From a virus, in IMG/VR virus record IMGVR_UViG_3300032291_002057, positions 78,305 to 114,406 of that record: a DNA stretch of 36,102 nt; one strand, written 5' to 3'. The notes under the pieces were generated by a model. The model was not told the DNA's origin. It saw nothing but the letters and a program-made list of their open reading frames with translations, and ran no database searches. Position numbers and translations under genes: made by a program. This document shows positions 15,197 to 34,507 of the stretch, piece after piece; the stretch's first letter is position 1, and each line of letters begins with the position of its first letter.

Positions 15197-15670
15197 TTAA
15201 GTACTACTTTTTTCAGTAGTTATAGCATCTTGTGTTACATTATATTCGTAATTGGTTGTGTCAATGTTTTCACGGAATACAATTGCTCCATTGCGGAGAT
15301 GAAACCTACGGGCCATATTTGTTTTAGGACTGAGGGTTACAAACCTAGTTACACTCGGGTATTGTTCTTGTATCCCTTTAACTGCCCTAAACAACAATTC
15401 TTGTCCTTTGCCACTTTTATAACTCCAGATGGTATAGAATATAGCGGTAGTAGGTACCTGTGCAGTTTTATCTAAATCTTTAACATCAGCAGGAATAAAG
15501 TCATGGAAACTAACACATACCATAGCTTCAGGATTTTGTTCTGCATCAGTCAATGCCGCAACTATTCTTCCGTCACTAACGCGGAAATCTTTTGATATCT
15601 CAGGACGAACAGGATCGTCTTTGATAAATTCTAATAATGTGTGTGAGAGGTCTTTGATGAATTGTAGCAT
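15197..15670 (-). CDS. GNAT-like acyltransferase fold protein (157 aa)
   Basis: Residues about 75-150 (TTAIFYTIWSYKSGKGQELLFRAVKGIQEQYPSVTRFVTLSPKTNMARRFHLRNGAIVFREN) follow the GNAT core: a strand, the S-G-K-G-Q-E-L-L acetyl-CoA-loop-like turn, a helix, then a strand R-F-V-T-L-S-P and a helix with M-A-x-x-F-H-x-x-N-G-A, ending with tyrosine-rich NYEY. A very similar protein is known to me from T4-like phages as a hypothetical. The acceptor is unknown. It has its own late-type promoter and starts immediately after it. Confidence 0.7.
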   Translation of the reverse strand: MLQFIKDLSHTLLEFIKDDPVRPEISKDFRVSDGRIVAALTDAEQNPEAMVCVSFHDFIPADVKDLDKTAQVPTTAIFYTIWSYKSGKGQELLFRAVKGIQEQYPSVTRFVTLSPKTNMARRFHLRNGAIVFRENIDTTNYEYNVTQDAITTEKSST

Positions 15671-19442: not shown

Positions 19443-19891
19443 CGTATTTCCTTTATTTTATTTACGTAGTCGCTACATATAGCGATACACTTTACATCTA
19501 ACACATTGTTTAATGTACTATCAATATACTCTGGCATGACCATAATACTATTTGGTGTTAATGACTTACCGGGCTGTGTCCATATATAACCTTTACTAGT
19601 CAACACACAACTGTCACTTTCATGCCAAAAGAAATTTAAATTATTTAGTAATGACATAATATATAATGCATCTACGTTTTTTGCATGTAGCCATAGATTA
19701 GATTGTTTTAAAAATTCATATGGAACTTCATAGTCAGGATAGTCATGACCAAGAAACCATTTGTTATCCACAGACCAAACATCAACTTCACAATGATATC
19801 CCTTACTTAATGCTAGTTCAATCTGTTGTGGTCTATTTTCTAAATTAACATCAGGTCCGTTAAATAGGCCTCTATGTGCTATGTATAGCAT
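19433..19891 (-). CDS. Glycerophosphodiester-phosphodiesterase-like protein (152 aa)
   Basis: The N-terminus IAHRGLFNGPDVNLENRPQQIELALSKGYHCEVDVWSVDNKWFLGHDYPDY carries the GDPD pattern: H-R-G, N-x-E-N/R-P, E-x-D, and H-D. At 152 residues it is only about two thirds of a typical GDPD barrel, so it may be a compact variant or act with a partner. It would cleave glycerophosphodiesters or remove glycerol-phosphate groups from glycans. It overlaps both the HAD and SGNH genes. Confidence 0.8.
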   Translation of the reverse strand: MLYIAHRGLFNGPDVNLENRPQQIELALSKGYHCEVDVWSVDNKWFLGHDYPDYEVPYEFLKQSNLWLHAKNVDALYIMSLLNNLNFFWHESDSCVLTSKGYIWTQPGKSLTPNSIMVMPEYIDSTLNNVLDVKCIAICSDYVNKIKEIRCD

Positions 19892-20579: not shown

Positions 20580-20896
20580 ACGATATATTTGTCAGTTGGT
20601 ATACTAGGTGTTTTAACACACACAATAGTACAGTCTTCATGGAATATTGGATCAGCTATTTCATTTGGTTCAACAATAAAAGTATCCCCTGTTATTAATT
20701 CTATCCCACACATGGTCATACTTCCAGAAATCAATATGTTGTATTCAGTGGCAATCTTATGAGTGTGTGCAGGCCAAACTTCACCCTTTGGATGAACTCT
20801 TACGCATACTTCAAATTCATTGGTACGCAATAGACTATTTTCAAAATCACCTATAATCCAGCCTCGATCATGGTTCGATAGTTTTCCTACTTTCAT
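20576..20896 (-). CDS. Cupin-domain protein (106 aa)
   Basis: The cupin signature is visible: G-x(5)-H-x-H-x(3,4)-E in WPAHTHKIATEYNILISGSMTMCG (two His and Glu) and a second motif GDTFIVEPNEIADPIFHEDCTIVCVKTP with the last His. The size is that of a single-domain sugar epimerase/isomerase-like or small-molecule-binding cupin. In this operon it could act on the sugar nucleotide or as an isomerase. It is coupled to the HAD gene (overlap of 4 bases) and overlaps the NTP-transferase gene by 29 bases. Confidence 0.8.
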   Translation of the reverse strand: MKVGKLSNHDRGWIIGDFENSLLRTNEFEVCVRVHPKGEVWPAHTHKIATEYNILISGSMTMCGIELITGDTFIVEPNEIADPIFHEDCTIVCVKTPSIPTDKYIV

Positions 20897-21587
20897 TTAG
20901 ATATTTAGCTAGGTCATCGGGGGTGCCTACAGGAATATATTGATGTTTATCTAACAACACAGTGCCTATTTTCCATTGTTTTTCAATTAGGTAATTGTAT
21001 GTAGGACCTATATAAAATTCGTTATTAGATTGTTGGTTAATACGTATCATATGTTCTGCACTGTTTACAAAACTATGCCCATATTTCCAATAATGTATTC
21101 CAACCAATGCTTGATTGCTTACTACTTGCTTTTCTACTATTTCAGTAACATACCCGTCATTACCTATACGTGCATAACTATGTTTTGGATTAGTGTCCTC
21201 TATTGTGACAACGCTACCCATTGATTCTCGTAACTGTGAAATTACATTTTTTGAATCGTAATCCATAATTTGATCACAATTAGCAATGATCAATTCTTCT
21301 AATGTGTCAATGTATCTTTTAGCCAATAATGCGGAACAGGATGCGCCATCGGTTGTGTACCTAGTTTCTATGATGATAGGATTAGATACTATTGATTTGA
21401 TAGCCTGATATGTATCATTGATATGTTCATCTTTTCTTACAACAAAAATATAATTACCATCAAATCCCAATGTTTCTACTGCACGGACTATCATGGGTTT
21501 GCCATTTATATCAATTAATGGTTTGGGGATAGCATGTGTGTTATGAAAACGACTTCCTTTACCTGCCATTGGGATTAAAATATTCAT
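20868..21587 (-). CDS. Sugar-phosphate nucleotidyltransferase (239 aa)
   Basis: The N-terminus ILIPMAGKGSRFHN is the G-x-G-T-R-like nucleotide-binding loop of NTP transferases, followed by IPKPLIDINGKPMI (P-K-P-L substrate loop), EELIIANCDQIMD (a metal Asp) and VGIHYWKYGHSF. This is the RmlA/GalU/GlmU-type fold: it couples a sugar-1-phosphate to an NTP. Start at the second ATG (21587) is preferred because a late-type -10 lies 5 nt upstream; a start at 21593 adds two residues. It heads the sugar operon. Confidence 0.85.
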   Translation of the reverse strand: MNILIPMAGKGSRFHNTHAIPKPLIDINGKPMIVRAVETLGFDGNYIFVVRKDEHINDTYQAIKSIVSNPIIIETRYTTDGASCSALLAKRYIDTLEELIIANCDQIMDYDSKNVISQLRESMGSVVTIEDTNPKHSYARIGNDGYVTEIVEKQVVSNQALVGIHYWKYGHSFVNSAEHMIRINQQSNNEFYIGPTYNYLIEKQWKIGTVLLDKHQYIPVGTPDDLAKYLNESRKTIEP

Positions 21588-21592
21588 AGCCA

Positions 21593-21600
21593 TATTTAGT
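21593..21600 (-). promoter_or_regulatory. Late-type promoter (ACTAAATA) for the sugar operon
   Basis: ACTAAATA lies 5 nt before the ATG at 21587, like the TATAAATA-N5-ATG arrangement of other genes. Two mismatches to the octamer lower confidence. Confidence 0.5.
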
Positions 21601-22474: not shown

Positions 22475-23899
22475 TTACGCCAAAGTATAGCGATCCTTCA
22501 TAACGGTCTTCAACATGATTGCTTCTGGTGAGAAGTCATCCATGTTACCAGAAAGAATACCTTGTGCAACTGCTGGGCTAAATCCTGAGACTAGCGCAAC
22601 ACCTGTCTTGTCAAACTTAACTGGTGCGTTACCGTATGCGGCGTTCAAGTTCCAGAATACGACCTTTGGAAGTTCGTAGCCTGCCGCTTGATACTTACGT
22701 GCGATCATTTCGATAGCACTGTCATCATGCGAAACACCTGCATCAAATTGCATGTCTGAGAAGATTACTAATGTACCTGGCATTTCTGCTTGAGGAACAT
22801 TGTTATCTACCGCAGTCTTAAGGATCAAATCAAACGCTCGGTTCAAGTCGGTGTTAGCAACTTCACCAGTGTTCATTTGGTCAATCTTTTGATTGATGTT
22901 ACCCTTAAGGTTAACCAACTTAGGAGTGTGTGAGAAGGTCAAGAAAGTATCCTTGAACTTACCAGTGTTCTTGTCTGCAAAATACAATCCCAATGAGATT
23001 GCAACATCCAAACAAGACAAATCACTCTTTGAAGAACGACCACCTGCGGCACAAGTCATAGAACCTGAACTGTCAACCATTGGTAACACGTTACTGTCAC
23101 CGATGAAGTTTGGCAGTGCGTCCCATTGTGCTTGCAATGCATCCAATTCAGTCTTAGTCATAGAACTACGGCTGTACTTGTTGATAGCACCCTTCAACAC
23201 ATCATAAGGGAATACTGCACCAGCGTTAATCTTAACACCAGCTTCACCCTTAACCAACTTGGTTACGTACTCAGCGTAGGTTGTACCATGACGACCAAAA
23301 GCCTTCTTGTAACGTGCATGTGCCACTGAAGGAACATGACTGTAGTTGATGTTGTCCCAGTCGTTAGAACACATTTGTGTTTCAACAACATTGGTCAACG
23401 CAACAAGGCTCTTACGATATTGCTTCGGAGTCATACCAAAGAATTCACGGATTTCACGTGCAACATCGCCCTTACGTGGGGTCCACTTAGCAGCCAATCC
23501 ATTACGGTTACGCAATGCATCGCCCAACATAGTGTATGCTTGTGCCTTAAGATTCTTAGTCTTAAACACAAACAAATCATCGTAACGGCCTAATTCAGGA
23601 ACCTTAACCATCAAACGGCTAGCGTCTTCTGGGTTGGCTACTTCAAGGTAAGACATGATTTGTCGAAACAATTCACGTTCACCGCTACCACCACGTGCAT
23701 CACGTGCCCATTGGGCAATACGCAATGCTAGATCGGAGTTTTCTACGTATGCCGCAGTAAAAGCTGGGATGATGTTCTTACCACGGCTTGCACCGATGTT
23801 ATAGAACAAATCAACACAGGCGTTTGCTGTTGACTTACGTGCCTTCATACCATTTGTAGTACGGGCTTCTTGGTTCATTACTGCTTCTGCGAATTGCAT
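22475..23899 (-). CDS. Ro60/TROVE-like vWA protein, DUF2828 family (474 aa)
   Basis: Residues about 1-265 are helical repeats typical of TROVE/DUF2828 modules; ALRIAQWARDARGGSGERELFRQIMSYL and PELGRYDDLFVF are family phrases. A von Willebrand A domain follows: MIDAS D276-S278-S280 (MVDSSGSM), T350 and D382 (SDMQFD). The end KYQAAGYELPKVVFWNLNAAYGNAPVKFDKTGVALVSGFSPAV is the strongest match to DUF2828 proteins. Ro60 rings bind misfolded RNA and Y RNAs; the same is inferred here. Start MQFAEAV at 23899 follows GGAGAAC; a longer frame from 23914 is unlikely. A structured leader precedes it. Confidence 0.85.
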   Translation of the reverse strand: MQFAEAVMNQEARTTNGMKARKSTANACVDLFYNIGASRGKNIIPAFTAAYVENSDLALRIAQWARDARGGSGERELFRQIMSYLEVANPEDASRLMVKVPELGRYDDLFVFKTKNLKAQAYTMLGDALRNRNGLAAKWTPRKGDVAREIREFFGMTPKQYRKSLVALTNVVETQMCSNDWDNINYSHVPSVAHARYKKAFGRHGTTYAEYVTKLVKGEAGVKINAGAVFPYDVLKGAINKYSRSSMTKTELDALQAQWDALPNFIGDSNVLPMVDSSGSMTCAAGGRSSKSDLSCLDVAISLGLYFADKNTGKFKDTFLTFSHTPKLVNLKGNINQKIDQMNTGEVANTDLNRAFDLILKTAVDNNVPQAEMPGTLVIFSDMQFDAGVSHDDSAIEMIARKYQAAGYELPKVVFWNLNAAYGNAPVKFDKTGVALVSGFSPAVAQGILSGNMDDFSPEAIMLKTVMKDRYTLA

Positions 23900-24163
23900 A
23901 CGTTCTCCTTTCATTTGTATTGCAACAGGATGCGCTTTTTTACTATTATGAAAAGTATTAAAGTTGCTGAAAGCATCCTAAAAATATAACAGGTTAGCTG
24001 TTGACTGCGTTTTTAGACAGGACCGTCACGCCTGCTTTGTTAGTCTTGCTTCAATAGTGCCCTTCAACGATTCACAGATTTTACTCTGTTTCACTCCAGT
24101 CACCTACCACAGTGTCTAACAGTCCATAGTTAATGTATGATGCTGTATCTAACCTAAAGAATG
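23900..24163 (-). ncRNA. Structured leader / candidate Y-like RNA upstream of the Ro60-like gene
   Basis: About 265 nt with no gene lies between a -10 box at 24164 and the ribosome site. On the minus strand, AGGTTAG near the start pairs with CTAACCT near 24000, closing about 155 nt. Inside are a TGTTAG/CTAACA stem and an ACAGA/TCTGT hairpin. A second hairpin, 11 bp with one bulge (AGGATGCTTT...AAAGCGCATCCT), sits at about 23928-23978, just before the ribosome site. It could be a processed RNA, a riboregulatory leader, or both. Confidence 0.5.
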
Positions 24164-24449: not shown

Positions 24450-24523
24450 TGGAGCGGGATAGGAGAATCGAACTCCTGTCCGAACCTTGGCAAGGTCCCG
24501 TTCTACCATTTAACTAATCCCGC
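24450..24523 (-). tRNA. tRNA-Gly (GCC)
   Basis: Cloverleaf with GCGGGAT acceptor, anticodon arm GGACC-TTGCCAA-GGTTC (anticodon GCC), T-loop TTCGATT and encoded CCA. It lies just upstream of the omega-like gene on the same strand, so it probably shares its transcript. Confidence 0.9.
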
Positions 24524-24531
24524 TTTTAACT

Positions 24532-24606
24532 TGGTACCTGGACACGGTTTCGAACCGCGGACCCTCTCCGTGTAAAGGAGACGCTCTACCCCTGAGCTAT
24601 CCAGGC
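24532..24606 (-). tRNA. tRNA-Val (TAC)
   Basis: Acceptor GCCTGGA/TCCAGGT with a G1-U72 wobble, anticodon loop TTTACAC (TAC), T-loop TTCGAAA, encoded ACCA. Its first ten bases are also the end of the upstream small gene (stop TAG within the tRNA). Confidence 0.9.
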
Positions 24607-24782
24607 TTCTTATCTTCACTGCTGTTATTATAACAGACTTTGTTTATATTGTCAAATGCCTCATCTTCAATTTGGGCATCTTCAATTTCTCTAGGATCCG
24701 GCTTGCGAAAAATCGCATCAAAATTATTACCGAATTCTTTCTGACTTACACTATATGGTCTTGGTCTGCTACCTTTACTCAT
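24597..24782 (-). CDS. Small phage protein of SKGSRPRP type (61 aa)
   Basis: MSKGSRPRPYSVSQKEFGNNFDAIFRKPDPREIEDAQIEDEAFDNINK resembles a small family found in many large phages (basic start, F-x-N-N-F-D-x-I-F middle, acidic end). Function unknown. An AAGGAA site precedes the ATG. The last ten bases overlap tRNA-Val, and a consensus promoter for that tRNA is embedded in the last third of the gene. Confidence 0.75.
   Translation of the reverse strand: MSKGSRPRPYSVSQKEFGNNFDAIFRKPDPREIEDAQIEDEAFDNINKVCYNNSSEDKKPG
24627..24655 (-). promoter_or_regulatory. Perfect-consensus sigma70 promoter inside a CDS
   Basis: Minus strand TTGACA (24650-24655), 17-nt spacer, TATAAT (24627-24632). It lies in the coding end of the 61-residue gene and points at tRNA-Val, tRNA-Gly and the omega-like gene. 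Confidence 0.85.
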
Positions 24783-24800
24783 ACATTCCTTACTAAAAAT

Positions 24801-24877
24801 TGGTCGGAGTACAAGGATTCGAACCTTGGACCCCCTGGTCCCAAACCAGGTGCGCTACCAGACTGCGCCACACTCCG
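24801..24877 (-). tRNA. tRNA-Pro (TGG)
   Basis: Acceptor CGGAGTG with TACTCCG, anticodon loop TTTGGGA (TGG), T-loop TTCGAAT, encoded ACCA. C1-G72 at the acceptor end is typical of proline tRNAs. Confidence 0.9.
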
Positions 24878-24881
24878 AAAT

Positions 24882-24957
24882 TGGTTGCGGGTGAAGGATT
24901 CGAACCTCCGGCCTCCAGGTTATGAGCCTGATAGTCTGACCACTGACGTAACCCGCG
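24882..24957 (-). tRNA. Initiator tRNA-fMet (CAT)
   Basis: The 5' end CGCGGGT faces ACCCGCA, giving a C1-A72 mismatch, the hallmark of bacterial initiator tRNA. The anticodon loop is CTCATAA and the 3' end is CAACCA as in bacterial fMet. In the anticodon stem, two of the three usual G-C pairs are kept (30-40, 31-39) and pair 29-41 is A-U. Confidence 0.85.
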
Positions 24958-24967
24958 ATATATTTAT

Positions 24968-24996
24968 ATTATAATTGATTGTCTATTTAAAATCAA
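24968..24996 (-). promoter_or_regulatory. Promoter for tRNA-fMet and tRNA-Pro
   Basis: Minus strand TTGATT (24991-24996), 17-nt spacer, TATAAT (24968-24973), overlapping a TATAAATA octamer immediately downstream. Either signal could start the tRNA-fMet transcript. Confidence 0.65.
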
Positions 24997-25002
24997 GTTT
25001 TT

Positions 25003-25077
25003 TGGTGCGTAATGAGAGATTCGAACTCCCGACCACCGTCGAGTCAGGACGGGACTCTACCACTGAGTTAATCACGC
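25003..25077 (-). tRNA. tRNA with GAC anticodon (Val), unusual position 37
   Basis: Acceptor GCGTGAT/ATTACGC, anticodon stem CCGTC/GACGG with loop CTGACTC (anticodon GAC), T-loop TTCGAAT, encoded ACCA. Position 37 is U where a purine is normal, so decoding may be altered. It starts right after the desaturase stop. Confidence 0.8.
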
Positions 25078-25734
25078 TTATACGTTAAATTTATGTTGGT
25101 GATGTTCTCTATGTCGCCACGTTAATGGCTGAGTTGGCATAATCTCAGGAATGTTTCTAGCCTCACCATATAGATGACCACGAACATTAATTAATCCACT
25201 AAAGTGTAGTGTTGCAACTACTGTAGGACTGATAATAAAAATTACAATCAGTGGATTGATATACCAGAATAAAGCCAGTGACAATAACTGTAACTTAGTC
25301 CAATGTCTATGCATAAACATTTGGAAGTCACTCTTAATATAGTCTTTAATGTAACTAGGATTTAGTGGACCTACTTTCCAAAGTAAGAACCATACACGCC
25401 AGTTGCCTATGTATTTAGGACTATGAGGATCTAGTTCTGTGTCTACATGACGGTGATGCATACGATGCACATAAGCAAAGCCTAGTGGACTTCCTGAACC
25501 ACCTGCAATACATGTAAAAATTGTTGCAAAGATTTCTATCGGACCATCTTTATAAGATTTATGAGCCATTCGCAAGTGAACCAAATCACTGTTGATTAAA
25601 ATGTTGTACAAAATTGTATAGAGTAAGATTGCCAATGCAATATAGATATTAAATCCGTATACAATTATTCCGTACAATAATACTAGGTGATGCACGCCAA
25701 TCATAGCCAAGTTATGGTGTTTAAATATATTCAT
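25078..25734 (-). CDS. Short diiron fatty-acyl desaturase-like protein (218 aa)
   Basis: Three histidine boxes of membrane desaturases are present: H53-LRMA-H58 (H-x4-H), H90-RM-HH94, and H208-RE-HH212, with the phrase FAYVHRMHHRHVDTELDPHSP as in acyl-lipid desaturases. Hydrophobic segments lie at about 12-50, 62-80 and 147-182. It is about 40-80 residues shorter than usual, ending 6 residues after box three, so activity is less certain. Its start overlaps the stop of the hydroxylase gene (ATGA); the tRNA cluster follows immediately. One of four desaturase-like genes in the island. Confidence 0.8.
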   Translation of the reverse strand: MNIFKHHNLAMIGVHHLVLLYGIIVYGFNIYIALAILLYTILYNILINSDLVHLRMAHKSYKDGPIEIFATIFTCIAGGSGSPLGFAYVHRMHHRHVDTELDPHSPKYIGNWRVWFLLWKVGPLNPSYIKDYIKSDFQMFMHRHWTKLQLLSLALFWYINPLIVIFIISPTVVATLHFSGLINVRGHLYGEARNIPEIMPTQPLTWRHREHHQHKFNV

Positions 25735-26465
25735 AGTAATCTCAAATCGTCTTGTCCATTAGTATCAACAATTAAATGCAATCTAGGCACATCACTGTTA
25801 TTGCTTACCCAATGCACCATACCACTGTTAAAAAAGTAAACACTTCCGTCTGCTGGCATCGTATATGATATATTTCCATCTTTGGTTTGCCCACCAAATA
25901 CAACTTGGTCATTTGTAAAGACTGGAATATGATATCTAGTAATATAGCTAGGATCATAATCAACGTGCGGCTTAATTGTAAATCCTGGCATGATTACTGC
26001 TAATCTAACTCTAGTAACTTGGCTCGTAAACATGTCTAGTATTTCTTCAAAGATACCTTTCACATGTTGATTCCTATGAGTATAGTTATGTTCATCAGCT
26101 TCTGGAATATAATCTTTACTAGTTGGATCTAATCTACGTGTTCTAATAAATATAGAACTATGTGTTTCGTCTAATCTATCCTCTGTATTAATCTTTAAAT
26201 CAGGATTAATGTCGGTAAGATAAAGTTGTTTGTATTTTTCACCCTCACGTGAGGCTGCATCTTCTTCTAAAAAGAAGGTATCCTTACAGAACGTGTTTGC
26301 TACTAAAAACGACTTGTGCTTGCTGTCAGCACTATACTTAATATCATTGAATTCATCGTAATTAGTATATCCGTTGTCCACACAATATTGCTTAAGCCGT
26401 TCAATATCAACGGACTTTTCAATTTTTCCGTAAGCAGGTAATTCTTTGCGTGTTAGCCGATTCAT
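25731..26465 (-). CDS. Aspartyl/asparaginyl-hydroxylase-like Fe(II)/2OG oxygenase (244 aa)
   Basis: The C-terminal part holds the double-stranded beta-helix core: RVRLAVIMPGFTIKPHVDYDPSYITRYHIPVF (H-x-D), a strand-rich middle, GSVYFFNSGMVHWVSNNSDVPRLHLIVD (distal His and the Arg for 2-oxoglutarate). This matches the Asp/Asn hydroxylase (Asp_Arg_Hydrox) type. The N-terminal 150 residues are less conserved and may bind substrate. Start MNRL at 26465 follows a GATAAATA octamer. It is coupled to the short desaturase, suggesting both act on one product. Confidence 0.85.
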   Translation of the reverse strand: MNRLTRKELPAYGKIEKSVDIERLKQYCVDNGYTNYDEFNDIKYSADSKHKSFLVANTFCKDTFFLEEDAASREGEKYKQLYLTDINPDLKINTEDRLDETHSSIFIRTRRLDPTSKDYIPEADEHNYTHRNQHVKGIFEEILDMFTSQVTRVRLAVIMPGFTIKPHVDYDPSYITRYHIPVFTNDQVVFGGQTKDGNISYTMPADGSVYFFNSGMVHWVSNNSDVPRLHLIVDTNGQDDLRLL

Positions 26466-26481
26466 ATAAATACTATTTATC
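26465..26481. promoter_or_regulatory. Overlapping divergent late-type octamers
   Basis: TATAAATA at 26465-26472 reads rightward to the desaturase ATG at 26482; GATAAATA at 26474-26481 reads leftward to the ATG at 26465. Both would give leaders of about 2-4 nt. Confidence 0.6.
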
Positions 26482-27288
26482 ATGCATATATCTCACAAAA
26501 GTATTAATTGGCTATTCATATTTCAGATAGTTACCCACCTATCTGTTATTCCTATGCTCATTTACGGTGAACTACATCACTATCTAATAGCCTGGTTAGT
26601 TTTCTTTTTTACCGGATCTATTGGAATGAGTGGAACTTTTCATAGACTATTAAGCCATCGTAGCTATTTAGCACCTAAATGGTGGGAATATTTTGGAACT
26701 ACCTGCGGCACACTAGGCGGTACAGGATCTAGTATAGGATGGTGTGCTGTACATCGTGAACATCATAGATTTACTGATACAGAACGTGATCCACATAGTC
26801 CAAGTTTTCAACCTTGGTGGAAAATTCAATTTCTTAGTATGTTTCATGTGCCGCATGTACGATATGTACCTGATTTACTACGTAGTAAATTTCATGTTAA
26901 TATGCACAAGTACTACTGGTATATACATGCAATATATGCTGTAATATTATATTTGATTGATCCTTTTGCTTTAGTATATGCTTGGCTTGTTCCTAGCTTT
27001 ATATTATGGCATGCAGGAAGTGCTATCAATACATTAAGCCATACATTAGGCTGGCAAGATCATCCATCTAAGGACACTAGCACCAATCATTGGTTAACCG
27101 GCATCTTTATGTGGGGTGAAGGCTGGCATAATAACCATCATCATAGTCCAATGAATTGGAAGTTTGGTGAGAAATGGTGGCAGATTGATGTTACTGCATA
27201 TGTTATTAGATTACTTGGGTTCAAAGGAACGGCTTCCCTCAAAACGGTTCCAGTAAGTAAATCCGGGAAAGTCAGTGGGGATATCTAA
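26482..27288 (+). CDS. Diiron fatty-acyl desaturase (268 aa)
   Basis: All boxes are canonical for acyl-CoA/acyl-lipid delta-9-type desaturases: H54-RLLS-H59 with FHRLLSHRSYLAP, H91-RE-HH95 with AVHREHHRFTDTERDPHSP, and H216-NN-HH220 in GEGWHNNHH, plus NTLSHTLGWQ before box three. Four hydrophobic segments at about 9-50, 75-90, 150-172 and 175-190. It would add a double bond to a fatty acyl chain in the membrane. Its end overlaps the convergent gene by 78 bases. Divergent from the hydroxylase gene. Confidence 0.9.
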   Translation: MHISHKSINWLFIFQIVTHLSVIPMLIYGELHHYLIAWLVFFFTGSIGMSGTFHRLLSHRSYLAPKWWEYFGTTCGTLGGTGSSIGWCAVHREHHRFTDTERDPHSPSFQPWWKIQFLSMFHVPHVRYVPDLLRSKFHVNMHKYYWYIHAIYAVILYLIDPFALVYAWLVPSFILWHAGSAINTLSHTLGWQDHPSKDTSTNHWLTGIFMWGEGWHNNHHHSPMNWKFGEKWWQIDVTAYVIRLLGFKGTASLKTVPVSKSGKVSGDI

Positions 27289-27864
27289 GTATCCATCAAA
27301 GTCGTGAAAGTAAAAGAAACGCCATTTGCTTGACGGTCCCGCATGATACGGATCATTTACAAATGTAAAATAGAATTTGTTATCTTCCGGGAATTCAGCT
27401 ATGCGAGTGCTGTCTAAAACAAAGTGATCTTGACTTTCTACTCTATCTGTATCATATGAAAAACAAACTGTAAAGGTTTGGGGGCAATCATGTTTATGAT
27501 TCATTATTTCCATACCAGGAGCTTGAATCATTAAAAATGAAGCTATAGGTTTCTTTTCTAACTTATCTAACATACTAGTAACTTCTTGCCATTGCTTTGC
27601 AATTGCCAATCTAAATTCCATTGGCACAAAGTTACATTCATTTTCTAATGCTCTACGTAAATGTAGAAGTGTAATTGTTTGTTTCAACGATACTGGTCGT
27701 AAGTATTTTTCATCAAGTACATACTCAAGTTTACTATCAATATGTGTTAATGGAAGCGTATCATAAAACGCAAGGTCCATAGTTTTAAATTCGTGATTAA
27801 TAATATCATACCGCAATTTACCTAATTTGTAAAAGTCACTATTTTTAAAATTTGAAAAATTCAT
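27211..27864 (-). CDS. Putative metal-site oxygenase, paralogue A (217 aa)
   Basis: A shared core with the gene at 30811-31509: M-N-H-K-H-D-C-P-Q-T-F-T at about 119-131 (H-x-H), then F-x-F-V-N-D-P-Y-H and W-R-F-F-Y-F-H-D-F-D-G-Y-L-D-I-P-T-D near the end. Two His, a later His and a conserved Arg fit a jelly-roll Fe site of the kind in Asp/Asn-hydroxylase-like proteins, but the family is not confirmed. The N-terminal part is helical. Last gene of the five-gene operon started at 30355; its 3' end overlaps the convergent desaturase by 78 bases. Confidence 0.7.
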   Translation of the reverse strand: MNFSNFKNSDFYKLGKLRYDIINHEFKTMDLAFYDTLPLTHIDSKLEYVLDEKYLRPVSLKQTITLLHLRRALENECNFVPMEFRLAIAKQWQEVTSMLDKLEKKPIASFLMIQAPGMEIMNHKHDCPQTFTVCFSYDTDRVESQDHFVLDSTRIAEFPEDNKFYFTFVNDPYHAGPSSKWRFFYFHDFDGYLDIPTDFPGFTYWNRFEGSRSFEPK

Positions 27865-28474
27865 GTATGTCCTCTCTTTTTAAGTCCAGCGTACAAACAT
27901 ATTGCTCAGTGTAAAATAATGTTTGTTTTCCTCGGAACTCAAAATTACTTATCAATGCACCACTATCAGGGAACTTAAAATTGTACCCACCTTTTTCCCA
28001 ACCTCTATCACGCCACCATCGATATAACCCATAACGATGGTCATCAAACGTGATGCTGAACGTGTCAAGACCCATATCATATGCTTGCTTTATGTGATAG
28101 GGAAAAATAGTTGCACTTGCTAAACCATTCTGATTCTTAAACAAGTCTGGGTTAGTTGTAATACGATGGCAGTAACTGTCTTTATCTGATACTAATAAAC
28201 CTGCATATACAATGACTTCATCATTCTCATCATACACAAAACTAAAGCTACCTTCTTTAAGTTTATGTTCAAAGCTATATCCTAAACCATTAGTAAAAGA
28301 GGGGTCAAGACTATAATTCGTAATCTTTTCTTTGTTTGCTTCTTTTACGTTCCGAGTAGGATGATTCCACCAGCTCTCCAATGACTTGATTACTTCCTTC
28401 GCTTCATTATACGGATAGTAATCAGTTTTTATATAATAGCCAGGTGTATTAGGACTGTAAATCTTTTCCATCAT
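27845..28474 (-). CDS. GNAT-like protein (209 aa)
   Basis: Residues about 65-170 follow a GNAT-like order: SFSFVYDENDEVIVYAGLLVS strands, YCHRITTNPDLFKNQNGLASATIFPYHIKQAYDMGLDTFSITFDDHRYGLYRWWRDRGWEKGGYNF, with a helix and the R-x-Y-R-W-W-R-D-R-G-W end typical of an acetyl- or acyl-CoA transferase. The C-terminal part is strand-rich. A start at 28474 or 28471 is possible (two Met in a row); it overlaps the desaturase end. It could acylate a lipid or peptide in this pathway. Confidence 0.6.
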   Translation of the reverse strand: MMEKIYSPNTPGYYIKTDYYPYNEAKEVIKSLESWWNHPTRNVKEANKEKITNYSLDPSFTNGLGYSFEHKLKEGSFSFVYDENDEVIVYAGLLVSDKDSYCHRITTNPDLFKNQNGLASATIFPYHIKQAYDMGLDTFSITFDDHRYGLYRWWRDRGWEKGGYNFKFPDSGALISNFEFRGKQTLFYTEQYVCTLDLKREDIHEFFKF

Positions 28475-29279
28475 CAACTAAGAAGAAATGCTTTACCGTC
28501 CAACCAGCTAAATCAAATTCGTTGGGCTTAACTGCCATAGTATAACTATTTGGATACATATGATGATTGTTGTGCAATCCTTCACCGGTGTCCCAATAAT
28601 GAATCCATTGATTGTTAGTAGAGTAATCACCTTGGTCTCTTAAATCAAAATTACGATAAGAACCCCAGGTATTCAAGTGATACAAGTAGATGCGTAGTGT
28701 TCCATGAAACACATTCCACCCAATGTTACCAAACACAAAGAATACTAAAAATTGCCAACCAACAAAATATGAAATAATACTAGACAATACTAAGTATGCA
28801 ATCCAAATGCCGATATAGTTGTGATGATTAAACATCACTGTTTTGTCTCTTAACAAATCACGAGGAACTACTAATGTAGTTTTTTCTCTATAGTATTCTT
28901 CATTCTTAAAATGAAGTAAGAACATGTCCCATAGACTCAAATATTTTGGAGTATGAACATCTTTATCAGTATCAGGATGCTTATGATGGCTTCTATGTAC
29001 TGCTGTATGTCCTAAGATAGTTCCTTGAGCAACTAAAATGCTTGACCAGCACAATAACTGATGGCGAATAGGTCCTGTCTTAAACGAACGATGTGCAAAG
29101 TACCTATGTAATCCTATTTGATCTCCTATTAGTTCTACAATTTTGTAGCACAATAATGAATAGAGTATCCAGTAGTATTCACTGGTATATATTGCATACC
29201 CAAACATAAAGAAGAAACAAGGTAATGCAATTACCTTTAATAGGATTGTTATGTTATTCACTTTGTTTACGTTGTTCAA
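28449..29279 (-). CDS. Diiron fatty-acyl desaturase (276 aa)
   Basis: Boxes H58-RYFA-H63 (LHRYFAHRSFKTGP), H95-RS-HH99 (AVHRSHHKHPDTDKDVHTP) and H236-NN-HH240 (GEGLHNNHHMYP) are complete. Hydrophobic segments lie at about 11-51, 76-92 and 155-190. Size is normal for bacterial acyl-lipid desaturases. It follows the TauD-like gene with a 26-base overlap and precedes the GNAT-like gene, which ties lipid desaturation to hydroxylation and acyl transfer. Confidence 0.9.
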   Translation of the reverse strand: MNNVNKVNNITILLKVIALPCFFFMFGYAIYTSEYYWILYSLLCYKIVELIGDQIGLHRYFAHRSFKTGPIRHQLLCWSSILVAQGTILGHTAVHRSHHKHPDTDKDVHTPKYLSLWDMFLLHFKNEEYYREKTTLVVPRDLLRDKTVMFNHHNYIGIWIAYLVLSSIISYFVGWQFLVFFVFGNIGWNVFHGTLRIYLYHLNTWGSYRNFDLRDQGDYSTNNQWIHYWDTGEGLHNNHHMYPNSYTMAVKPNEFDLAGWTVKHFFLVDDGKDLQS

Positions 29280-30147
29280 TTAACATATGACGCAAACTCT
29301 TACTGTAGTCTACGGTCAAACGCCACATAAATCTATCACCTTGAACTTCGTTGCGTCTATGAATTGAATGGAACTGATCCATAAAAATCATATCGCCGTG
29401 TTGCCAACTATCATGGTGATAGATATATTTATCTTGGAACACATGATCATACAAGTACTGACGCAACCACGCTTCATCTAGTGATTCACCACTGCGGCGC
29501 CACATTTTATTAATGCTATGAAATGTAAAATACAATCCCTTTTCTTTACTGAACGGGTGTTGATACACTAGTGGCTTAACCAAGCCCTCTGGGTATAAGT
29601 TTGAATTTTCAAAGAACTCTAGTTCTTGGTCACCCTCATCTAAGTGATAGAATGTATTATTTTTGAACTTAAAGTTACAGTCAACATCATCTAACAACTC
29701 TTTAATGTCATCAGGCAAATCTTGGTATGCTTTGCGAGTGTCCGCAAAACTTGTAATGCTGTTTACGCCAGGACGAATACAATACAACATAACACAACAT
29801 TCACGACCTGTATCACGGTTGTTACCATTGCTGTGCCAATCTAAATCTTTATCAGCGAATAAACCAATCTTCTTGCCGTTTTCGTCACGTTGATTTGTAA
29901 CACGGCCTAATCCCTTATGCTTATCATCATTAAAGAACTTGTCACTCTGCATTGTTCTGCCAATTGCATGTGCTACTCTAACAATGTCATCACGGTCATC
30001 TAATTTTTGATTACGTAAAAGAACAACATTGTCTTCAATTAACACTTTACCAAACTCTCTAACCTGGTCAGTACTCATTGACTGCAAATCAAGGTCAAAG
30101 TATTCATAACCTACCCCCGGCAATGCCTTTTTATTGTACGTTGTCAT
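29254..30147 (-). CDS. TauD/TfdA-like Fe(II)/2OG oxygenase with H-x-N site (297 aa)
   Basis: The TauD-like order is clear: an N-terminal helix and VVLLRNQKLDDRDD strand, a metal site DLDWHSNG near 101-108, and GDMIFMDQFHSIHRRN...RFMWRLTVDY at the end (distal His263 and Arg276). The usual H-x-D is H105-S-N107 here, so the carboxylate ligand is replaced by Asn. This may change the metal chemistry or hold inactive enzyme. Coupled to the membrane gene upstream and the desaturase downstream. Confidence 0.85.
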   Translation of the reverse strand: MTTYNKKALPGVGYEYFDLDLQSMSTDQVREFGKVLIEDNVVLLRNQKLDDRDDIVRVAHAIGRTMQSDKFFNDDKHKGLGRVTNQRDENGKKIGLFADKDLDWHSNGNNRDTGRECCVMLYCIRPGVNSITSFADTRKAYQDLPDDIKELLDDVDCNFKFKNNTFYHLDEGDQELEFFENSNLYPEGLVKPLVYQHPFSKEKGLYFTFHSINKMWRRSGESLDEAWLRQYLYDHVFQDKYIYHHDSWQHGDMIFMDQFHSIHRRNEVQGDRFMWRLTVDYSKSLRHMLIEQRKQSE

Positions 30148-30355
30148 TTTTGGTTAGTCCCCATTTAATTTTTAACCATATACGTTCATGTATGTAATAA
30201 TCAATACTCAATAGTACATGTAATGCGGTAGCAAACCCTGCTGAATTTCCTAAATTACCTGTAAACAAGTAAGTCCAAAAGATTGTAAACAGCCATGCTG
30301 TTAATCTATAAGTCAGCATCCTTGCTACTGTGCGTTTTTTTGTTTCATTAGTCAT
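30131..30355 (-). CDS. DUF2061 small membrane protein (74 aa)
   Basis: RTVARMLTYRLTAWLFTIFWTYLFTGNLGNSAGFATALHVLLSIDYYIHERIWLKIKWG matches DUF2061: R-x-x-x-R-x-L-T-Y-R, a first membrane helix ending F-T-G-N-L-G, a second helix, and Y-Y-x-H-E-R-x-W. Function unknown. It is the first gene of the desaturase operon, with an AATAAATA octamer 4 nt before its ATG; its stop overlaps the TauD-like start. Confidence 0.85.
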   Translation of the reverse strand: MTNETKKRTVARMLTYRLTAWLFTIFWTYLFTGNLGNSAGFATALHVLLSIDYYIHERIWLKIKWGLTKNDNVQ

Positions 30356-30359
30356 GCAG

Positions 30360-30367
30360 TATTTATT
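30360..30367 (-). promoter_or_regulatory. Late-type promoter of the desaturase operon
   Basis: AATAAATA followed by CTGC and the ATG at 30355. No ribosome site fits in the 4-nt gap. Confidence 0.6.
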
Positions 30368-30399
30368 TCATAAATTATATGCATGTAATAAAATATGTT

Positions 30400-30475
30400 T
30401 GGTGGAGGATACAGGGATCGAACCTGCGACCTATTGCTTGCAAAGCAACCGCTCTCCCAACTGAGCTAATCCCCC
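30400..30475 (-). tRNA. tRNA-Ala (TGC)
   Basis: Acceptor GGGGGAT/ATCCTCC, anticodon loop TTTGCAA (TGC), T-loop TTCGATC, encoded ACCA. The pair at position 3 is G-U, the alanine identity element. Confidence 0.95.
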
Positions 30476-30485
30476 ACTAAAATTT

Positions 30486-30562
30486 TGGTGCCCCAGAGGA
30501 GACTCGAACTCCTAAAATTTGGCTTCTAAGACCAACACGTATACCAATTCCGTCACCGGGGC
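30486..30562 (-). tRNA. tRNA-Leu (TAG) with short variable loop
   Basis: Acceptor GCCCCGG/CTGGGGC, anticodon stem TTGGT/GCCAA with loop CTTAGAA (TAG), T-loop TTCGAGT, A73 and encoded CCA. The variable loop is only 5 nt, although bacterial leucine tRNAs normally carry a long variable arm; total length is 77 nt. Confidence 0.85.
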
Positions 30563-30572
30563 AATCTAACTG

Positions 30573-30646
30573 TGGAGCGGGGTAGGAGAATCGAACTCCT
30601 CGCTTTAGCTTGGAAGGCTAAGGTATTACCACTATACGAACCCCGC
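30573..30646 (-). tRNA. tRNA-Gly (TCC)
   Basis: Acceptor GCGGGGT/ACCCCGC, anticodon loop CTTCCAA (TCC), T-loop TTCGATT, encoded CCA with U73. The second glycine tRNA in the window. Confidence 0.95.
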
Positions 30647-30654
30647 ATACTTAT

Positions 30655-30683
30655 ATTCTAACAACATCTTGTTTAAAAGTCAA
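30655..30683 (-). promoter_or_regulatory. Promoter for the tRNA-Gly/Leu/Ala cluster
   Basis: Minus strand TTGACT (30678-30683), 17-nt spacer, TAGAAT (30655-30660), just upstream of tRNA-Gly. Confidence 0.7.
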
Positions 30684-30719
30684 ATTGAATTTGACCAAAC
30701 TTATGTTAATACTATCTAT

Positions 30720-30809
30720 TGGTGGAAGCGGTGAGATTCGAACTCACGGAACACGTTAGCATTCGCTAGTTTTCAAGACTAGTTCCTTAAACCGCTCGGA
30801 CACGCTTCC
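30720..30809 (-). tRNA. tRNA-Ser (TGA)
   Basis: A class II tRNA with a long variable arm: acceptor GGAAGCG/CGCTTCC, anticodon loop CTTGAAA (TGA), T-loop TTCGAAT, encoded ACCA. It follows the paralogue-B gene. Confidence 0.95.
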
Positions 30810-30810
30810 A

Positions 30811-31509
30811 TTATTTTAAATTATTACCATCCAAATATTCATTTTCCATGTAAGTGAACGGCAAATCAGTTGGTACGTCAAAATAGTCATCATAATCATT
30901 GAACCAAAAGAATATCCATTCACGTGAACGATTCTCATGGGGAGGATCATTTACCATTGTGAATATGAACCTATCATTATCCGGAAAATATGCTTTCTTT
31001 GATAAGTCATCACCTAATGCAAAATAGCTTGGTTCTGCTTCCGGTAAATTATCATCATTGTATCTATATGCCATCGTCAATGTTTGTTTACATTGATGCG
31101 TATGTTTATACACTGGTTGACCTGGTTCAGTAATCAACAACATTGAATGTGTTAATCTAATTGGCCTATCAGGGTGTGCTTCATTGTGTTCTTTGGTAAT
31201 CTTTTGATTGATATCAGTTACTTCTCTCCACTGCCTGATGATGTCTTCTTTAAATTCTTTTGGGATAAAATCGGGTTCATCAGGAGAAACTGGCTGTAAC
31301 TCTAATGCTCTTAACAAAGGCATTACTGTTACGTTGCCATGCGGAGGAGGAATATATTCTTCATACAATGTAGTTGTTGAACTTAATTGCGGTATAGGCA
31401 TAGTATCATACATTGGGAAAAACCACGGGATATACTTTTGATTTTTGTAATCAAATCGTGACCGACCTACCTTGTAGAAATAACTTTCTCTAAACGCTTT
31501 AAAATTCAT
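30811..31509 (-). CDS. Putative metal-site oxygenase, paralogue B (232 aa)
   Basis: Paralogous to the gene at 27211-27864: KHTHQCKQTLTM (H-x-H), then FIFTMVNDPPHENRSREWIFFWFNDYDDYFDVPTDLPF. Both begin MNF...F-Y-K-[VL]-G-[RK]-x-R-[FY]-D. The conserved His pair, later His and Arg suggest a jelly-roll metal site of the hydroxylase type, not proven. It has a perfect TATAAATA late promoter and starts 5 nt after it. It is divergent from the radical SAM gene. Confidence 0.75.
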   Translation of the reverse strand: MNFKAFRESYFYKVGRSRFDYKNQKYIPWFFPMYDTMPIPQLSSTTTLYEEYIPPPHGNVTVMPLLRALELQPVSPDEPDFIPKEFKEDIIRQWREVTDINQKITKEHNEAHPDRPIRLTHSMLLITEPGQPVYKHTHQCKQTLTMAYRYNDDNLPEAEPSYFALGDDLSKKAYFPDNDRFIFTMVNDPPHENRSREWIFFWFNDYDDYFDVPTDLPFTYMENEYLDGNNLK

Positions 31510-31514
31510 GCAAG

Positions 31515-31522
31515 TATTTATA
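31515..31522 (-). promoter_or_regulatory. T4-type late promoter, leaderless
   Basis: TATAAATA then CTTGC and the ATG at 31509; there is no Shine-Dalgarno. A second TATAAATA nearby reads rightward to the radical SAM gene. Confidence 0.8.
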
Positions 31523-31551
31523 ATATAAATATTAAGACAATATTTAAATTC

Positions 31552-33462
31552 ATGCCTAAAAAAATTGGACTGATAAACCTTCCATTACAAAATGATACGG
31601 CATTCTATCCGTTAATTTGGTTAATCATTAAAACTACAATAGAAAAAAAATCAAACAATAAATTTGATTTTTTGGATCCTATTATCATTAACGGAACAAC
31701 AGTAGATGATGATTATTATCGGTCTACTGATATTATGTTCTGTAGTTTTTACACTTGGAATAGATTATCTTCTGAAAAACTATTAGAAGATTATAAACGA
31801 ATTAATCCAAACGGTATAATTATAGTAGGTGGACCTCACATACTAGAAAACGACACTGAATTATTTGATTATGTTTGTACTGGGGAAGCAGAAACTTGCG
31901 CTCACTTAATTGTTGATAAAATCTCTGGAATGGATATCAAAAAGATACCTAACACTAAGAGTAAACATCTACATGTTTTCTATGAAGAAAAACTTCATGA
32001 TTTTAGTGTGAGTCCATTTCTCTTTCAGCGTGATACATTATTTGATTTTAAAAACAGACACCCAGAACTTAATTTGGGTGTAGTATTTGAAACGAATCGT
32101 GGGTGCCCATATGGTTGCACCTTCTGTGATTGGGGTCAAGCAACATTGTCAAAAATTCGTCAACGCCCGTTAGATTTAATCAAACAAGAAATTGAATTAT
32201 TCAGTGAACTAAAAATACCTAGCATGTTCTTAGCCGATGCAAACTTTGGTATACTTCCAAGAGATATTGAGATCGCAAAATATATGGCTGATACTAAACA
32301 AAGAACAGGCTTTATTAAAACTGTAATCTATAGTACAAGCAAAAACAATATGAATCGAAATATAGAAATCGGTGAGATATTCTATAATTCTGGATTGATC
32401 CAAAGCTATGTGTTCAGCCTACAACATACTGATAGTGAAGTCTTACAGGTTATTGATAGAGTAAATTTACCAACCAATAAGTTAAAAGCTACTACAGAAA
32501 TTTTCCTTCAAAAGAAGATTCCTACTTCTGTTCAAATGATTATAGGTAATCCAGGAGATACGCTTACAAAGTGGCGTAGAACTCTAATGGAGTTATTAGA
32601 AATCAATATACATGAACAGATACAAATATTATACTTTGCAATGTTGCCTGGAGCCCCTGCAAGCGATCCAGATTACATTAAAAAATACGATATAAAAACA
32701 TCAAAAATTAATTACTTTCCTAACTTAGGAAGTCAACGTGTACTTGATATGAGTGAATCAATCATCACTAGTACCAATACATTCACAATGGATGAATGGA
32801 TTGAGATGAATATATTCGGCAGATATTTACAAGCTATGCATGATTTAGGATTAACCAAAGTTTTGTCAATTTATTTACATAACAAAAACATTAAGTCATT
32901 TACTAATTTTTATAGTGATTTATTTAATCAACTACAAACTAATTTTCCTGAATTGTTTGATTCATTACGTGTTGCACTTAAAACATGGATCACTACAGAC
33001 AACTCATTATTGACTTGGAATCCAGATCAAATAAAAGAATCTATTGAAACAGAAAACAAACTATGCTTTCATTTTATCAAGCACAAACATAAATTTTATG
33101 CTAGTGTCCTTCAATCAATAAAAGATGTTGCAGATAAAAAAATTATTGATTTGTTTAACTGGCAACAAGATATCATTATTGACTTAGAGTATCATCCTGA
33201 TAAAGGTGTATTATACCAATCTAAGTATGACTGGCACACTTGGTATCAAAATAAAAACTGGCGTGCTAAAATAAAATTGCGTAAAGAATCGGCTAAGTAT
33301 GCTGATACTATCATTCGTAGTGAAAATAATTCAGTACCACAACCCTTTTCATTTCATAAATTTGCTGATAAACAAAGAGACAAAATGTATATACACCAAA
33401 TGATTGTTGGTTTATATCAACGGCGTAATAGACTATATCTTAAAGATTTAGTCATAACTTAA
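31552..33462 (+). CDS. Cobalamin-type radical SAM protein (636 aa)
   Basis: The 4Fe-4S motif C185-PYG-C189-TF-C192 (TNRGCPYGCTFCDWG) is the C-x3-C-x2-C of radical SAM enzymes. The N-terminal 110 residues (KIGLINLPLQNDTAFYPL...IIIVGGPHI...VCTGEAE) follow the B12-binding domain type of such proteins, though the DxHxxG motif is not clear. Residues about 200-440 are the barrel (e.g. VFSLQHTDSEVLQVIDR, MIIGNPGDT), and the last 200 form an unrecognised helical domain. It could methylate or rearrange the lipid or peptide product of this island. Substrate unknown. Confidence 0.85.
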   Translation: MPKKIGLINLPLQNDTAFYPLIWLIIKTTIEKKSNNKFDFLDPIIINGTTVDDDYYRSTDIMFCSFYTWNRLSSEKLLEDYKRINPNGIIIVGGPHILENDTELFDYVCTGEAETCAHLIVDKISGMDIKKIPNTKSKHLHVFYEEKLHDFSVSPFLFQRDTLFDFKNRHPELNLGVVFETNRGCPYGCTFCDWGQATLSKIRQRPLDLIKQEIELFSELKIPSMFLADANFGILPRDIEIAKYMADTKQRTGFIKTVIYSTSKNNMNRNIEIGEIFYNSGLIQSYVFSLQHTDSEVLQVIDRVNLPTNKLKATTEIFLQKKIPTSVQMIIGNPGDTLTKWRRTLMELLEINIHEQIQILYFAMLPGAPASDPDYIKKYDIKTSKINYFPNLGSQRVLDMSESIITSTNTFTMDEWIEMNIFGRYLQAMHDLGLTKVLSIYLHNKNIKSFTNFYSDLFNQLQTNFPELFDSLRVALKTWITTDNSLLTWNPDQIKESIETENKLCFHFIKHKHKFYASVLQSIKDVADKKIIDLFNWQQDIIIDLEYHPDKGVLYQSKYDWHTWYQNKNWRAKIKLRKESAKYADTIIRSENNSVPQPFSFHKFADKQRDKMYIHQMIVGLYQRRNRLYLKDLVIT

Positions 33463-33466
33463 AAAC

Positions 33467-33543
33467 TGGTGCCTCCAACAGGACTCGAACCTGTAACCCA
33501 GCGATTATGAGTCGCTTGCTCTAACCAATTGAGCCATAGAGGC
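33467..33543 (-). tRNA. tRNA with CAT anticodon (Ile2-like or elongator Met)
   Basis: Acceptor GCCTCTA/TGGAGGC, anticodon arm AGCGA-CTCATAA-TCGCT, T-loop TTCGAGT, encoded ACCA. The GCGACTCATAATCGC arm is more like bacterial tRNA-Ile2, where CAU is modified to read AUA, than elongator Met. The call is tentative. Confidence 0.8.
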
Positions 33544-33553
33544 AAAAAAACTT

Positions 33554-33640
33554 TGGTGCCCGGAGCCGGAATCGAACCGGCACGCCTGTTAGAGCGAGAG
33601 ATTTTAAGTCTCTTGTGTCTACCTATTTCACCATCCGGGC
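33554..33640 (-). tRNA. tRNA-Leu (TAA)
   Basis: Class II tRNA with long variable arm, acceptor GCCCGGA/TCCGGGC, anticodon loop CTTAAAA (TAA), T-loop TTCGATT, encoded ACCA. Confidence 0.95.
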
Positions 33641-33664
33641 ATTACTTTTCAAACTTCAGATACT

Positions 33665-33693
33665 AGTATAACAAGTTTTGTGTTTGTTGTCAA
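33665..33693 (-). promoter_or_regulatory. Sigma70-type promoter for tRNA-Leu and the CAT tRNA
   Basis: Minus strand TTGACA (33688-33693), 17-nt spacer, TATACT (33665-33670), about 20 nt from the tRNA-Leu 5' end. Confidence 0.85.
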
Positions 33694-33729
33694 CTAATTT
33701 CTATCTTTTAACCACTAAAATAACCCAAT

Positions 33730-33737
33730 CATAAATA
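33730..33737 (+). promoter_or_regulatory. Late-type promoter (CATAAATA), leaderless
   Basis: CATAAATA then TGATT and an in-frame ATG at 33743, matching the octamer-N5-ATG layout of other genes in the window. Confidence 0.65.
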
Positions 33738-33742
33738 TGATT

Positions 33743-34507
33743 ATGAAATTAAAATACATTGATAGCGTAACCATAAAACTTGTTGTAGCCTTTATTATAA
33801 CACTTATTGCCATACCTTATTGGTTTTATTCCGGCGGTACCTTGTTAGGATTTATATTAGTAAGAATAATTGCAAATCAAATACAAGCTACAGGTACAAT
33901 CGGATACCACAGATGGTTATGTCATAACAGTTTTAAACCTAATGTATTTGGAAAATACTTTATGTTATTTGGAATAATAACAAGTGGGATAGGAAGACCT
34001 TTCCATTATGTAATTAGTCACATGTTACACCATCGTCATACTGATACTGAACTTGATCCGCAGTCTCCTAAATACTTAACCTTCTGGGAATTATTCTGGG
34101 GAAGATTACGAATCAACTCCGGCATTCCTTTACCAAAACATTTTATGCGAAATAAAGAAGCAATGTTTGTTAACACATACTACTGGCATCTATATTTTAC
34201 ATTCAATATAATTTTAGCAATAATTGATTTACCTACTGCATTGATCTTTTGCCCTATAACATTAGTTCAGGCTTGGATGGGTGCAACAGTGTTAAACTAT
34301 AACGGTCATGCAGGTAATAAAAATAAAGATGAAATACAACCAACTAATCTACCTACATGGATAAATATACTTTCATGGTCCGGTGAGAATCTACACAAAA
34401 ATCATCACGAAAATCCAAGTTCTTATCACTTTGACGGCCATGGACGTAAAGATATTATGCGCTGGTATGTCGAAGGTTTGTTAATGTCTAAGAAACAAAA
34501 TGTCTAA
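33743..34507 (+). CDS. Diiron fatty-acyl desaturase (254 aa)
   Basis: Boxes H56-RWLC-H61 (YHRWLCHNSFKPN), H93-ML-HH97 (SHMLHHRHTDTELDPQSP) and HKNHH near residue 220 (GENLHKNHHENPSSYHFDGHGRKDIMRWYVEG) are complete. Hydrophobic segments lie at about 9-42 and 148-178. Start at 33743 is chosen because the CATAAATA octamer lies 5 nt upstream; 33737 would add two residues. It shares GTxGYHRW and ELDPxSPKY phrases with the other desaturases, showing one family with diverged members. Confidence 0.9.
   Translation: MKLKYIDSVTIKLVVAFIITLIAIPYWFYSGGTLLGFILVRIIANQIQATGTIGYHRWLCHNSFKPNVFGKYFMLFGIITSGIGRPFHYVISHMLHHRHTDTELDPQSPKYLTFWELFWGRLRINSGIPLPKHFMRNKEAMFVNTYYWHLYFTFNIILAIIDLPTALIFCPITLVQAWMGATVLNYNGHAGNKNKDEIQPTNLPTWINILSWSGENLHKNHHENPSSYHFDGHGRKDIMRWYVEGLLMSKKQNV

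Follow-up and report, generated by a model that had tools for sequence, protein, structure and literature searches.

A stretch of viral DNA of 36,102 nucleotides (the window; bases 78305-114406 of the linear 114,406-base virus record IMGVR_UViG_3300032291_002057, here G000) carries, between its positions 25078 and 34507, four membrane desaturase genes interspersed with genes for oxygenases, a radical S-adenosylmethionine (SAM) enzyme and other proteins. This island raises the question of what a phage could do with so many putative acyl-modifying enzymes. We favour, with moderate confidence, the reading that it is an accessory phage pathway for the oxidative tailoring of an acyl chain. The observations that carry this reading are the gene content, the intact motifs, purifying selection and the recurrent co-location of the same families in other phages.

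Enzymes encoded by the island

The coordinates and gene content given for 25078-34507 by the initial annotation, made from the sequence alone, were borne out. The genes are as follows.

des1, 25078..25734, minus strand: membrane desaturase of 218 aa with three histidine boxes, overlapping asph by 4 nt
asph, 25731..26483, minus strand: 2-oxoglutarate (2OG) oxygenase of the Asp_Arg_Hydrox family (Pfam PF05118, 1e-10)
des2, 26482..27288, plus strand: desaturase (Pfam FA_desaturase, 5e-18)
par1, 27211..27864, minus strand: jelly-roll paralogue of par2, with HxH...H
gnat, 27845..28477, minus strand: GNAT-fold protein; a TTG start is listed, with ATG codons within the next 6 nt
des3, 28449..29279, minus strand: desaturase (Pfam FA_desaturase, 3e-12)
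tauD, 29254..30147, minus strand: TauD-family protein (Pfam, 4e-26)
DUF2061 gene, 30131..30355, minus strand: small membrane protein (Pfam, 1e-5) at the head of a minus-strand run, 97% identical in the related locus L004
par2, 30811..31509, minus strand: paralogue of par1
rsam, 31552..33462, plus strand: TokK/KedN5-like cobalamin-dependent radical SAM enzyme
des4, 33737..34507, plus strand: desaturase (Pfam FA_desaturase, 5e-10)

All four desaturases contain the complete histidine boxes that had been described for them (H-x4-H, H-x2-HH and H-x2-HH), and the nine histidines are invariant among 20 phage desaturases; a profile scan using all 20 found no conserved stretch. While des2, des3 and des4 each exceed the Pfam cut-off, des1 has no Pfam match, matches NCBIfam DesA at 4e-6 and is alignable with the other desaturases. 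The desaturase profile matches the stearoyl-CoA desaturase SCD1 at 2e-41. Judged by sequence, des1-4 are SCD/DesA-type membrane diiron desaturases. In a tree, des2 groups with desaturases of loci L092, L070 and L094 (support 0.97-1.0), which adjoin an asph gene in L070 and L094 and lie one gene apart from it in L092. The des3 clade (support 1.0) contains four desaturases of L005 and those of L110, L111 and L046, from records G002, G011, G015 and G022, all of which bear an acyl carrier protein (ACP) gene, and des4 forms a clade with L004 (support 1.0). The four desaturases of the window represent four separate lineages or subfamilies and did not arise by recent duplication; this speaks for different roles.

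Pfam confirmed the families of the Asp-hydroxylase-like and TauD-like oxygenases. The HxD...H...R catalytic residues of asph are present in the alignment, and its best solved relative is the beta-hydroxylase of PDB entry 7v4f (4e-19), from a nucleoside-antibiotic pathway. The closest relative of tauD outside the window and L004 is the TauD protein of pelagiphage Mosig (3e-49). Its nearest NCBIfam model is ScoE, an isonitrile-forming enzyme of the TauD superfamily that acts on a fatty-acid-derived amino acid; this reading was not adopted because of the low score (50 versus 400 bits) and an altered motif, H-x-N where the ScoE type has H-x-D, and no ligase gene was found. The two proteins annotated as paralogous metal-site proteins, par1 and par2, are indeed 38% identical (E 4e-40) and conserve H-x-H...H. 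Given a weak match to cupin/2OG-like folds from a low-confidence model with a predicted local distance difference test score (pLDDT) of 58, par1 is a probable cupin/2OG-like jelly-roll protein. Matches in a scan for the par family were confined to the phage of the window and its near relative L004, so that their distribution offers no functional clue.

The claim that rsam is a B12-type radical SAM enzyme is supported by a Pfam Radical_SAM match above its own cut-off (1e-11) and by similarity to TokK across most of its length (1e-70); the match to the B12-binding domain (8e-7) falls short of the cut-off for that model. In TokK, two tryptophans are placed under the cobalamin and between SAM and cobalamin. 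The rsam protein shares with TokK/KedN5-type methylases the CX3CX2C motif and both functional tryptophans (W69 and W194, equivalent to W76 and W215 of TokK), yet differs in being phage-encoded and in scoring far below the curated cut-off of the KedN5 family (NF033712; 151 versus 700 bits). From these features, rsam is probably a C-methylase. Over its length, it shares 52% identity with a protein encoded at L113:11749-13650, inside a desaturase/ACP cluster of record G040, and a tblastn search with it against isolated phages found nothing. For the GNAT-like transferase, the fold was recovered by Foldseek (GNAT enzymes at 1e-6; 291 matches at E<0.001) from a likewise low-confidence model (pLDDT 59), whereas no sequence match was obtained; on this model, gnat is a probable acyltransferase. 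A relative of gnat adjoins asph in L092.

Gene organisation and selection

Stop-start overlaps had been said to tie these genes into shared operons with late promoters. Such coupling, with overlaps of 4 to 29 nt, holds for two minus-strand runs, one from 30355 to 27211 (DUF2061 gene, tauD, des3, gnat and par1) and one from 26483 to 25078 (asph and des1), but not for des2, rsam and des4, which stand singly on the plus strand. A single shared operon is not supported: genes are present on both strands, with tRNA genes between the pieces; in total, 11 tRNA genes were counted within the island or immediately next to it (24450-33640). The late promoters are not supported either. The candidate motif TATAAATA is not enriched (5 observed versus 5.25 expected). 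Four of the five copies lie at most 60 nt upstream of the start of an open reading frame, des2, par2 and rsam among them. As 0 of 7 copies elsewhere in the record are placed in this way, T4-type late promoters lack support.

Locus L004 contains the same core as the island with its parts arranged differently, and served to estimate the ratio of nonsynonymous to synonymous substitution rates (dN/dS). The values are 0.008 for des1, 0.017 for tauD, 0.035 for des3, 0.046 for asph, 0.09 for des2 and 0.14 for gnat; those for des4 (0.18) and par1 (0.11) come with saturated dS. Every island enzyme gene comparable with L004 is under purifying selection, and therefore even the short des1 is kept.

Recurrence in other phages

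Searches of IMG/VR for desaturases gave at least 564 confirmed matches on viral contigs. Among the matches listed, arrays comprise 11 desaturases in L046, 7 each in L107 and L025, 6 in L015 (five of them in tandem) and 4 in L005. L046 (IMGVR_UViG_3300013006_001903) is the densest array seen, with its 11 desaturases in ~15 kb together with ACP, AcpS, ketosynthase and ATP-grasp ligase genes.

Gene associations were tested on 50 whole records, which had been retrieved by desaturase queries, with statistics that ignore shared ancestry. ACP genes are present in 10 of the 20 records with at least three desaturases versus 1 of the 30 with fewer (p 1.5e-4), AcpS in 9/20 versus 0/30 (p 7e-5) and ketosynthase in 5/20 versus 0/30. 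A desaturase is found at a distance of at most 5 kb from 11 of 13 ACP genes (3.8 expected for random positions), 8 of 9 AcpS genes (2.5 expected) and 40 of 71 Asp_Arg_Hydrox genes (15.5 expected, p<0.001). Relatives G008, G022 and G026 have ACP, AcpS and ketosynthase along with desaturases. By Pfam, AcpS, Rieske, FabA/FabZ, ketosynthase and ACP proteins were confirmed for L112; the families confirmed for L046 are ketosynthase, ACP and ATP-grasp ligase, and L110 has a fatty-acid hydroxylase. The names SDR, GNAT, PP-loop, aminotransferase and some of the radical SAM names in relatives were assigned by eye and are unscored. The DS[LI] serine motif is kept in 12/12 ACPs inspected, and the phage ketosynthases keep a cysteine in an active-site-like context.

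Viral genes near the clusters include a major head protein and head protease (L006), a tail fibre (L111), a ClpP-like head protease (L112) and an endolysin (L109). In the isolated pelagiphage Mosig, Asp_Arg_Hydrox, desaturase, TauD, methylase and acetyltransferase genes form one run beside tail-fibre genes; the Mosig genome announcement leaves the desaturases unmentioned. A desaturase match labelled 'Acinetobacter phage MD-2021a' (CAKLQH020000002.1, L285) was discarded, as it is surrounded solely by bacterial housekeeping genes and is probably a mislabelled bacterial contig.

The record of the window encodes a phage-type DNA polymerase, an exonuclease and an ATP-dependent ligase. Close relatives of the polymerase (~85% identical) occur in records of 348,701 and 524,565 bases, and the record therefore probably represents part of a jumbo-phage genome. 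These two relatives carry two and three desaturases, most of which adjoin asph-type genes, and GNAT, B12-type radical SAM and PP-loop genes were named by eye, unscored, near them.

Several further genes were seen in the window and record. A malonyl-CoA-decarboxylase-C-terminal-like protein (15197..15670, minus strand; Pfam PF05292, 3.5e-8), with a copy of TATAAATA just upstream of its gene, has relatives only in L005 and L070, both desaturase-bearing loci, and is possibly an outlying part of the island. A TROVE/Ro60-like RNA-binding protein (22475-23914; phrog_850, 7e-141) adjoins a long tRNA array, and a DNA search of phage records gave as its sole match the tRNA-Met/tRNA-Leu stretch at 33495-33640, 91% identical to EBPR podovirus 3. 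An AT-rich block at 17833-21593, ~91-97% identical in L004, encodes a nucleotidyltransferase, a phosphomannomutase-like HAD protein, DUF6071 and unknown genes, and is possibly a sugar or phospho-compound pathway. A papain-family protease (4386-5228; PF00112, 2e-15) adjoins a laminin-G-like gene at 3635-4378. Elsewhere in the phage record (L021:4632-11457), CsgG-, curli- and FecR-like genes were seen by eye in a run that looks host-like, together with CHASE2-like and carboxypeptidase-like genes. Also by eye, the record of the window has DpdA-like (L018:10444-12000), FolE-like (L018:17609-18283) and QueE-like (L019:1155-2009) genes, which suggests 7-deazaguanine DNA modification; among these, the FolE-like gene is the one with support from a search (75% identical to one in L046), and the DpdA-like protein gave no Pfam and no PHROG match.

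Proposed acyl tailoring and its alternatives

The initial annotation proposed that the phage has a pathway of its own for work on an acyl chain. This is supported by the recurrence of the enzyme set, by the ACP, AcpS, ketosynthase and FabZ genes inside the arrays of relatives and by strong purifying selection; late expression, membrane remodelling and any particular product did not gain such support. The sequence of reactions, their substrate and product, and when and to what advantage the phage would use them, are inferred as follows. In related phages, the chain would be built or carried on a phage ACP by means of ACP, AcpS and ketosynthase, sometimes with FabZ and a short-chain dehydrogenase/reductase (SDR); in the phage of the window it would presumably be drawn from lipids, acyl-ACP or acyl-CoA of the host, or else the genes that are missing here would be found in the remaining, unsequenced DNA of the phage. 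The four desaturases would place double bonds at different positions, and asph, tauD and perhaps par1 and par2 would oxidise the chain or the head group, by hydroxylation or in another way. Methyl groups would be placed on unreactive carbons by the TokK-like rsam, and gnat would move an acyl group to, or from, an amine. A TokK-like enzyme together with SCD-type desaturases and an oxygenase is a combination that fits the tailoring of an aliphatic product, and would act on a carrier-held acyl chain.

Several points weigh against acyl tailoring. No ACP, AcpS, ketosynthase or AMP-ligase gene was found in the 114-kb record, and no ACP was found in the 349-kb and 525-kb relatives; since the record may be a fragment, absence of ACP from it is no proof of absence from the phage. 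The island is divided between both strands and split by tRNA genes. Because L004 lacks rsam, having another B12-type radical SAM gene instead, and has a single par copy, placed elsewhere, the full set is not obligatory. Taken as a class, proteins with a B12 domain show no significant enrichment near desaturases (6/16, p 0.054), and the way in which the 50 records were retrieved and tested also counts here. Finally, the metal motif of tauD reads H-x-N...H and not H-x-D/E...H, so that the usual metal-binding aspartate is missing. The form WH[SC]N is common to all eight desaturase-linked phage TauD proteins examined (window 29254-30147, L006, L107, two in L094, L081, L097 and L284, pelagiphage Mosig included), which itself counts in favour of acyl tailoring; it may mean altered chemistry or lost oxygenase activity. 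Decay of tauD is argued against by the strong constraint on the gene. As ACP, AcpS and ketosynthase are absent from the 114 kb, the best reading is an acyl-tailoring pathway that is reduced or incompletely captured in this record.

The desaturases could instead serve membrane remodelling only, raising the unsaturation of host phospholipids for fluidity in the cold or for virion release, with the other genes as bystanders. The proteins resemble DesA/SCD-type enzymes, and such a role was suggested for viruses from cryopeg that each have five desaturases (PMC7300359). We nevertheless consider this unlikely, as four subfamilies, up to 11 desaturases per locus and ACP, AcpS and ketosynthase genes inside the arrays exceed the needs of fluidity, and asph genes are tied to the desaturases. 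That a tRNA-rich insertion hot spot collected independent genes with different targets would fit the 11 tRNA genes, the parts on both strands and the incomplete, rearranged set in L004; the joint occurrence of these families in phages that have diverged, and also in one that has been isolated, and the common H-x-N type of TauD, speak against it and make unlinked cargo, too, an unlikely account. That the enzymes help to build a modified nucleotide or DNA base, and not a lipid, is highly improbable. The nucleoside-antibiotic origin of the best solved relative of asph and the FolE-like, QueE-like and DpdA-like genes point that way, but these genes are ~80-100 kb away in the record, and desaturases and ACPs point to acyl chains. 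A host-derived operon was rejected, and a well-known host pathway in this gene order did not emerge from the one test made: none of 79 bacterial loci with a relative of rsam has a desaturase within 10 kb, although these relatives are only ~30% identical.

Acyl tailoring can be set beside several known systems. Roitman and colleagues are said to have described lipid desaturases of cyanophages in 2018. Cryopeg and sea-ice viruses with up to five desaturases each have been read as carrying membrane-fluidity genes (Zhong et al. 2020, PMC7300359). These viral desaturases are likewise phage-borne, of the SCD/DesC type and with intact histidine boxes, but the island adds asph, TauD, GNAT and TokK-like proteins, and its relatives add ACP, AcpS, ketosynthase and FabZ. 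Polyyne/alkyne clusters combine jamABC with two desaturases, a thioesterase and a rubredoxin, use an ACP and require an acyl-AMP ligase (PMC8406139). They resemble the island in having several desaturases, and the phage relatives also in having ACP; the island has oxygenases and a TokK-like enzyme instead of the ligase. A polyyne/alkyne cluster was rejected, since fatty acyl-AMP ligase (PF00501) occurs in 0 of 50 phage records and G000 has no ACP. Roseobacter (Rhodobacteraceae) prophages carry fabG-acpP-fabF in host-like order (PMC8224337) and thus also link phages with fatty-acid-synthesis genes; in the relatives described here, such genes stand among desaturases and oxygenases in large phages. 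Multi-desaturase viruses have therefore been reported already (PMC7300359), whereas their combination with tailoring enzymes and acyl-ACP clusters was not found in the open-access literature searched.

More tentatively, and as something possible rather than probable, large phages may carry complete mobile clusters with the logic of type II fatty-acid synthesis, of which the island would be one member. Such clusters would contain ACP, AcpS, ketosynthase, FabZ, SDR, up to 11 desaturases, oxygenases, B12 methylases and acyl/amide transferases, and would make a diffusible, highly unsaturated natural product during infection, which could serve as antimicrobial, signal or virion lipid.

The metabolic genes of phages tend to be interpreted one enzyme at a time, as props for the metabolism of the host. 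The set described here covers several steps of acyl tailoring and is met again in phages that have diverged from one another, in some of them together with carrier and condensing enzymes dedicated to it. Because its host is in culture, pelagiphage Mosig gives direct access to experiments. If confirmed, acyl tailoring would make phages producers of specialised lipids or small molecules in their own right, and a source of unusual chemistry (the H-x-N TauD type and phage TokK-like enzymes) with a testable role for lipids in infection.

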